Shown: one piece after another, positions 29,218 to 30,661 of the stretch
How the letters are laid out: each line of letters begins with the position of its first letter
Position numbering within the stretch: the first letter of the stretch is position 1
Assembly: GCA_022446795.1 (NCBI GenBank)
Contig: JAKVBX010000001.1
Location: 288,107 to 352,106 of the forward strand
Length of the DNA: 64,000 bases
Direction: 5' to 3'
Origin: Phycisphaerales bacterium
GTDB lineage: Bacteria > Planctomycetota > Phycisphaerae > Phycisphaerales > SM1A02
The notes under the pieces: generated by a model
Databases searched by the model: none
Seen by the model: only the letters and a program-made list of their open reading frames with translations
Told to the model about the DNA's origin: nothing
Program-made: the position numbers and the translations under genes

Positions 29218-29799
29218 TCAGTCCTCGTCCGGACGCTCGAACGGCATGCCCAGTTCCTCCAGGAGGAACCGGCTCATGGCCGGGTTCGATCGCTCGAAGC
29301 AGACGTTGATGTTCATACCGTGCACAAAGGTGACCTGGGCCATGTTGATCTCGGGCCATACGGCCTGCTCGGTCAGCCCCACGGAGTAGTTTCCATCCTT
29401 GTCAAAGGCCGAATCCTTGACACCCCGGAAGTCGCGGACACGAGGCATCGCCAGGTTCATCAGGCGATCCAGGAAGTGCCACATTCGATCGCGACGGAGC
29501 GTCACCATGAAGCCCGAGGGAGCCCCTTCGCGAACCTTGAAGTTCGCGACGGACTTCTTCGCCATCCGCAGAATGGGCTTCTGGCCGGAAATCTGCGTCA
29601 GGGTCGAGATCACGGTGTCCGTGATGTCCTGCTTGAGCTTCTGGTTCTCAAGGTGACGACCGATGCCGATGTTGATGACGATCTTGGACAGCTTCGGCAG
29701 TTGATGGGCGTTGCCCAGGGCAAACTTCTCCATCAGCCGCGGCGAGATGTCCTCGTCGTACTTGGCCTCAAGCCGTGTCTTGGTCTTCTGTTCAACCAT
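29218..29799 (-). CDS. rplE: 50S ribosomal protein uL5
   Basis: 193 residues. Typical blocks are PKLSKIVINIGIG, RMAKKSVANFKVREGAPSGF (an abutting P-site tRNA loop), RVRDFRGVKDSAFDKDGNYS and the C-terminal RFLLEELGMPFER. It binds 5S rRNA and the central protuberance. Located between the broken rplX and rpsN. Confidence 0.97.
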   Translation of the reverse strand: MVEQKTKTRLEAKYDEDISPRLMEKFALGNAHQLPKLSKIVINIGIGRHLENQKLKQDITDTVISTLTQISGQKPILRMAKKSVANFKVREGAPSGFMVTLRRDRMWHFLDRLMNLAMPRVRDFRGVKDSAFDKDGNYSVGLTEQAVWPEINMAQVTFVHGMNINVCFERSNPAMSRFLLEELGMPFERPDED

Positions 29800-29825: not shown

Positions 29826-29930
29826 TCAGCGTGCGGCCCCTCGCAGGGTGTGCAGTTCCTTGCCGCCACGAACGGCCACGCGGACCTTCGATCCGTCAGC
29901 CTTCGTCTCGAACCGGACCCGGGACGGCCG
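29826..29930 (-). pseudogene. rplX: Out-of-frame C-terminal piece of rplX
   Basis: These 34 codons plus stop read [20 protein letters not shown] and on to GKELHTLRGAAR, the expected end of bacterial uL24, where a x-P-x-R-V-x-F-x-x-x-x-G-x-K-V-R-V-A segment follows the NVSPV region. It is in a different frame from the N-terminal 74 codons and separated from them by the G/C insertion at 29931-30054. It shows that the gene was intact in an ancestor, or is intact in the real genome. Confidence 0.8.
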
Positions 29931-30276
29931 CCCCGCCACCCCCCGGCAGGCAGTAAAAGAGTGGGATGGCCTCTCCAACGGCCGCGGGCCCGCCCCGGGG
30001 GCCCTGCGCCCGGCCCGCCTGGGGCGCGCCCCGCCCCCGGGCCGCCGGGCGGCCCACGGCCGGGCTGACATTACTGATGTGGATGGGCATCTCCTTGCGG
30101 AGGAGGCCACCCTGTGGATTCTGCTGCGTCGGCTTCATGTGACGCGTGCGGATGTTGACACCCTGGACGACGACCCGGTTCTCATCGGGAATCACCCGGA
30201 GCACCTCGCCGACCTTGCCGGAGTCATTTCCAGCAGTCACCATCACGGTGTCACCCTTTTTCACGTGGCGAGCCAT
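29896..30276 (-). CDS. rplX: 50S ribosomal protein uL24, frame disrupted after codon 74
   Basis: The first 74 codons (30055-30276) are normal uL24: [20 protein letters not shown], the KOW motif, [20 protein letters not shown] and HISNVSPAV. After that the frame enters an almost pure G/C stretch, gives ~52 unrelated residues rich in Gly, Pro and Arg, and stops at 29896. The true C-terminus survives in another frame (29826-29930). uL24 initiates 50S assembly, so a real loss would be severe. A sequencing or assembly error in the GC-rich stretch is the simplest explanation. Confidence 0.8.
29931..30054. other. G/C-only insertion inside rplX
   Basis: 124 bases separate the two homologous parts of rplX, where uL24 genes normally have about six codons. 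From 29980 to 30055 only two bases (30005 and 30020) are A or T. The rest is runs of G and C unlike the neighbouring genes. The stretch is bordered by copies of ACGGCCG at 29924-29930 and 30056-30062. The net length change shifts the frame. Confidence 0.75.
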
Positions 30277-30277
30277 G

Positions 30278-30661
30278 TCACACTACCTCCGAAGCGAGGG
30301 AAACAATCTTCATGTAGTTGCGTTCACGAAGCTCACGAGCCACGGCACCGAAGATCCGGGTTCCCGTGGGGTTGCCTTCCTTCATGATCACGCAGGCGTT
30401 CGAGTCGAAGCGGACGTACGAACCGTCCTTACGACGCGTGGGATACTTCGTACGGACGATTACCGCCCGGACAATGTCGCCGGGGCGAACCGCGGAGTTG
30501 GGCAATGCCTTCTTGACGGAACCGACAATCATGTCGCCAACGCCAGCCGTGCGACGGGTATACCGCCCTCGAGCCGTCGAGCCACCCAACACACCGATCA
30601 CACTGACGACCTTGGCGCCACTGTTGTCGGCTACTTCGATTCTGGATTCCTTCTGAATCAT
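30278..30661 (-). CDS. rplN: 50S ribosomal protein uL14
   Basis: 127 residues, [20 protein letters not shown] at the start and [20 protein letters not shown] near the end, both uL14 signatures. A five-residue insertion-like [10 protein letters not shown] loop follows VLGGS. It lies at the subunit interface. One base separates it from rplX. Confidence 0.97.

Follow-up and report, generated by a model that had tools for sequence, protein, structure and literature searches.

Is the gene for ribosomal protein uL24 (rplX) in this Phycisphaerales bacterium truly divided between two reading frames, or did the division arise during assembly? The window, i.e. the whole 64,000-nt stretch of DNA that was analyzed (G000:C1:288107-352106), belongs to a 3.54-Mb draft genome of 78 contigs, with a completeness of 95.96% and a contamination of 3.39%. 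Its contig, C1, has 556,741 bases and a GC content of 0.639. The nearest named relatives, as assessed by uL24, are NAT149, cluster2_bin.81, and SP4365, which are all marine Phycisphaerales metagenome-assembled genomes. The G+C content of the window is ∼64% vs. 55-59% in stretches of three genus relatives, an excess that stands despite an identity of 88-92% to five genus relatives over uL24 residues 1-74.

Organization of rplX in the assembly and in relatives

A minus-strand open reading frame (ORF) at 30276..29896 encodes residues 1-74 of uL24, which are normal and include the KOW motif (30055..30276, assigned by ORF translation and a Pfam match), followed by 52 unrelated residues up to a stop at 29896..29898 that ends the translated frame after 126 residues. 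On the same strand but in another frame (29826..29930) lie the final 34 codons of uL24 with their stop, as assessed by ORF translation, alignment to relatives, and a Pfam match. The ribosomal_L24 profile (PF17136) is matched at positions 1-32 in the upstream frame (E 4.1e-13) and at positions 38-64 in the second frame (E 0.00077, which alone is below the curated cut-off); the domain is divided between the two frames rather than lying with the KOW motif in one. This bears out the preliminary description, which had reported a 74-codon start and a 34-codon end, both normal and in different frames. Its count of 124 nt between the two halves (29931-30054) also holds, but the six or so codons that it expected there do not, because uL24 in five genus relatives is always 110 aa long with two codons (6 nt) at this position. 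The net gain in rplX is 118 nt (1 mod 3) by alignment, and again 118 nt by tblastn diagonals. Hence, both halves match the uL24 family (TIGR01079, PF17136), but they do not share a frame, and the distance between them is 118 nt too long. The anomaly is a true property of the assembly.

The divided gene lies between two minus-strand neighbors, one upstream (30278..30661, 127 aa) and one downstream (29218..29799, 193 aa), which we take from operon order to be rplN (uL14) and rplE (uL5), respectively. Each is a single open frame, in agreement with the earlier statement that the neighboring genes are intact, and they are the neighbors that rplX has in the spc operon. These spc operon neighbors are also named in excerpts of PMC10931766. 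In the relatives, the operon context of rplX was seen solely as the start of the next downstream gene. A genome-wide search gave a single rplX match, which eliminates an intact copy elsewhere in the genome.

The N-terminal part of uL24 is present in 40 of 41 genomes searched, this one included, and is missing in G016, which is 82% complete. All 29 relative loci that were read, a set that leaves ten further matching relatives outside it, have an uninterrupted rplX in one open frame of 105-167 residues (109 residues in L026, for example). The insert is present in none of these 29 loci and in none of the five genus members, which provides the comparison with close relatives that had been proposed, and no G/C-rich stretch resembling its tract occurs in the 29 genes. 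More widely, the uL24 frame extends for at least 100 residues from the match start in 75 of 80 named loci. In five loci with Campylobacterota names (L139, L141, L145, L146, and L147), uL24 stops 71-76 residues from the match start, soon after an SNV motif, and these proteins seem to end before the region that is frameshifted in the genome under study. A uL24 model matches 167 of 181 family genomes. Among the matches listed, uL24 of the genome under study is the only one to end at profile position 72 of 104, and all others reach at least position 96, which argues against a broken rplX being widespread in the family. Three genomes have two partial rplX matches each, corresponding to a gene cut by contig ends: L169/L173 in G541, L170/L171 in G464, and L172/L166 in G458. 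The two contig ends of G541 have 25 bases in common, and its rplX breaks off at nearly the position that the insert occupies here. Three order-level relatives (L021, L022, and L023) have a uL24 with a long Ala/Lys-rich C-terminal tail, for a total of 162-167 residues.

Both parts of the divided gene were compared with their counterparts in the five genus members. For the 74 N-terminal codons, pS is 0.45-0.70 and pN 0.047-0.071, whereas for the last 34 codons pS is 0.36-0.71 and pN 0.084-0.201. Among the relatives themselves, pN is 0.03-0.105 and 0-0.186 for the first and last parts, respectively, so that the values found here are within or just above the ranges of the relatives. Likewise, pN/pS is ∼0.08-0.13 (first part) and 0.13-0.44 (last part) against the genus, compared to ∼0.04-0.16 and 0-0.40 among the relatives, which is slightly higher only at the upper end of the last part. 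Judging from these substitution patterns, both flanks look selected, with no clear decay. Because its pN/pS is near the ranges of the relatives, the gene seems to have been a normal uL24 until very recently, which would fit either an artifact or a very young insertion.

The extra segment and its surroundings

Alignment with eight relatives places the extra segment at 29934..30055 on the minus strand, where ∼122 nt replace ∼4 native nt (net +118), with boundaries that are uncertain by a few bases. It has two parts of different composition. The first, at 29980..30055, is a tract in which 74 of 76 bases are G or C; our recount confirmed that it contains only two A/T bases, at positions 30005 and 30020. 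The second, at 29934..29979, consists of 46 nt with an ordinary GC content of 65%. Every other 74-base stretch on C1 has at least 11 A/T bases vs. 2 in the tract, such stretches never fall below 15 A/T bases in 512,748 bases of G005:C30, and no comparable tract occurs in 130,783 bases of eight other contigs of the same genome. Under a simple binomial model of independent bases at 64% GC, the chance expectation for such a tract in 3.5 Mb is ∼1e-5, and the window has 60 overlapping hits to a 36-base G/C pattern, all within the tract, vs. 4.0 expected from dinucleotide shuffles. Base composition alone does not explain the tract by chance. The RNA fold over 151 nt is no better than in shuffled sequences (z = 0.23), which eliminates a structured RNA at the insert, and an Rfam element was discarded since the one match was sub-threshold (E 0.52) and outside the insert.

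A source for the extra segment was sought in several collections. In a whole-genome search, the insert is found at one place only, and it shares only short chance words with the DNA stretches compared; the genome was therefore not taken to harbor a family of such inserts. The 46-nt part likewise has no match beyond such words in these stretches. With low-complexity filtering, which may have hidden the G/C part of the insert, phages and plasmids gave no match with an E value of 1 or lower, and no viral contig contains an exact 25-base piece of it; a phage, plasmid, or viral source was rejected on this basis. Among 397 genomes of the class (this one included), for each of which no more than two candidates were scored, 14 others have weak, partial GC-rich matches (best E 1.8e-6), and the loci inspected from seven of these 14 seem to be ordinary GC-rich DNA. 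Hence, further copies such as a mobile element would leave in this or related genomes were not found, the class genomes giving only weak GC-rich matches.

At its borders, the insert has a feature that the preliminary description had missed, i.e. a GTGG direct repeat whose minus-strand copies (30054..30057 and 29936..29939) are displaced by exactly 118 nt. The GTG of the first copy (30057-30055) encodes Val74 in the upstream frame, whereas the GTG of the second (29939-29937) stands at position 74 of the downstream frame and is followed by GCG GGG CGG (A75 G76 R77). The two identical codons are in register, in a match short enough for coincidence. GTGG occurs at the given place in 0.9% of shuffled inserts, a flattering figure since the match is only 4 bases and the junction had been inspected before the test was chosen. 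The repeat may reflect microhomology at a chimeric join or duplication of a target; that it is a pair of ribosome take-off and landing codons is the least likely reading.

We also looked for comparable events elsewhere on C1, using G005 for comparison. As assessed by tblastn diagonals, six of 807 G005 ORFs (antisense included) have segments displaced by at least 20 nt. Two of these are rplX, sense and antisense, both at +118; one at +171 is displaced by a multiple of three; one at +34 corresponds to a single open ORF in the genome under study; and those at +40 and -97 are in diverged genes. In the reverse control, 12 of 921 ORFs were displaced, one of which (-119) is an antisense ORF over rplX. 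Possible small frameshifts, with an excess of 1-34 nt, were flagged in six of 421 G005 genes with a C1 homologue, rplX not being among them. The reverse comparison flagged 12 of 406 genes of the genome under study, so C1 may contain other small frameshifts. One frameshift flagged at 23.6 kb in the window, in a gene that is presumably rpoA, was discarded because the gene is open in one frame.

Assembly artifact as the likeliest reading

We consider it probable, and the likeliest of the readings, that the insert in rplX is an artifact of assembly or consensus building. Living cells would then carry an ordinary rplX of 110 codons, and the insert would probably be absent from the organism. During metagenome assembly, or later contig merging or scaffolding, foreign or noise sequence consisting of 46 ordinary bases and 76 almost pure G/C bases would have been joined into the gene, possibly at the 4-base GTGG microhomology. 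This reading is favored because the single rplX is interrupted while 29 of 29 relative loci run to the stop in one frame, because both flanks look selected, because the tract stands alone on C1 and in the other DNA of the genome that was compared, and because no convincing source of the insert was found. The preliminary description had likewise favored a consensus error, in which we concur, but the hard GC stretch that it held responsible does not stand, since the extreme tract lies inside the extra sequence and not in the native gene. Such confinement suggests that foreign or noise sequence would have been taken in, rather than a native stretch miscalled.

The isolated ambiguous bases on C1 (21 single Ns in 556,741 bases) also favor an artifact, in that they make a merging step plausible. 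C1 has clusters of Ns at 89050-89356, 522314-522941, and 528317-528377. In the comparison genomes, there are 77 Ns in 80 kb of G002 (taken to be NAT149), none in 60 kb of G003, and none in the 512,748 bases of C30 in G005; among the 80 named relative loci, Ns occur solely in that of NAT149. The accession prefixes of NAT149 and SP4365 fall within the range of the project of PMC5769542, in which, according to the excerpted text, MEGAHIT contigs were merged with Minimus2 using a 100-base overlap and 95% identity. We infer that the Ns derive from contig merging, and a merging step is plausible for the genome of the window too. The stretch of SP4365 that was read is free of Ns, which would be consistent with a contig that had not been merged.

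Several observations count against an artifact. The site bears no N or other sign of error, and the closest N on C1 is ∼30 kb away; artifacts of this class were not seen again in the other DNA of this genome that was compared; and the gene comparison with G005 gave no second clear insertion of such size. Short-read assemblers should, in addition, rarely add 118 new bases where native reads exist. The case is also weakened by the in-register GTGG repeat, because it is expected from a real insertion with target duplication as well. Local misassemblies and chimeras in metagenome-assembled genomes resemble what is found here, i.e. a draft genome with ambiguous bases in which an otherwise conserved single-copy gene is broken by an isolated sequence with no known source, but here the site itself bears no error mark.

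Possible real insertion or recoding, and what the locus means

In a less likely though serious alternative, the insertion would be real and recent, would be carried by some or all of the population, and would leave a truncated uL24 of 74 + 52 residues. Template switching or end joining at the GTGG microhomology are examples of how it might have arisen. The direct repeat with its displacement of exactly 118 speaks for it, as does the lack of any ambiguous base within ∼30 kb of the site. On the other hand, the last 34 codons show no clear decay, nothing similar occurs in the 29 relative loci read, and no source was found in this genome, class genomes, phages, plasmids, or viral contigs. Cells with such an insertion would assemble their ribosomes slowly yet survive, or else a minority variant would have been assembled. 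Shoji et al. 2011 reportedly found that E. coli lacking L24 still grows, albeit poorly, in which case uL24 would not be strictly needed there. The argument that a real insertion would be hard to survive is thus weaker than was originally put, and viability does not exclude one. Against this, excerpts of PMC10931766 name uL24 as one of the essential proteins in the first step of 50S assembly. An excerpt of PMC4014445, on E. coli ribosomal protein genes that are not essential, does not name uL24 there, and the excerpts of PMC10906257 and PMC8556260 contain nothing on L24 dispensability.

Two recoding scenarios take the insert as real and the protein as restored. In the first, which we regard as very improbable, the ribosome would skip from GTG codon 74 to the GTG 118 nt downstream and continue with A75-G76-R77, for a predicted uL24 of exactly 110 residues. 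Identical GTG codons in two frames, in a register that restores the native length, are what this scenario calls for; moreover, the downstream codons look selected, and some relatives (e.g. L083, L085, and L094) have an Ala at position 75. However, the match spans no more than 4 bases and was recognized in hindsight, the insert has no second copy in the genome, and the gap is present in none of the five genus members. The known kinds of bypassing, as in phage T4 gene 60 and the byp elements of yeast mitochondria, resemble this locus in having a frame-breaking gap, which here lies in a core gene between identical GTG/GTG codons that would restore the exact length. T4 gene 60 reportedly has a stop after the take-off codon and structure beyond composition. 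Neither a stop nor a strong hairpin is found at the putative take-off site here, the upstream frame being open for 52 more codons and the fold energy no better than that of shuffles (z 0.23), and the gap is single-copy and missing from relatives. The bypassed region of T4 gene 60 is 50 nt according to an excerpt of PMC10931766, vs. 118 nt here. The second scenario, a +1 frameshift at any point of the G/C tract giving a uL24 with ∼39 extra loop residues after residue 74, is the least credible of all: both frames are open through the tract and the loop after residue 74 varies by a residue or two among relatives (e.g. L024 and L027), but openness proves nothing since stop codons contain T and A, of which the tract is nearly devoid, and no such loop is found in the 29 relative proteins read.

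If the insert is an assembly artifact, as we favor, the locus is a caution that, even in a draft genome that is good in other respects, one local error can break a universal marker protein; gene-calling software would annotate here a uL24 of 126 residues with a false end. A real insert would make rplX a rare example of a ribosomal protein gene interrupted in nature. If it were both real and bypassed, it would be a striking case of chromosomal translational bypassing in a core gene, across a G/C-rich untranslated gap of 118 nt.
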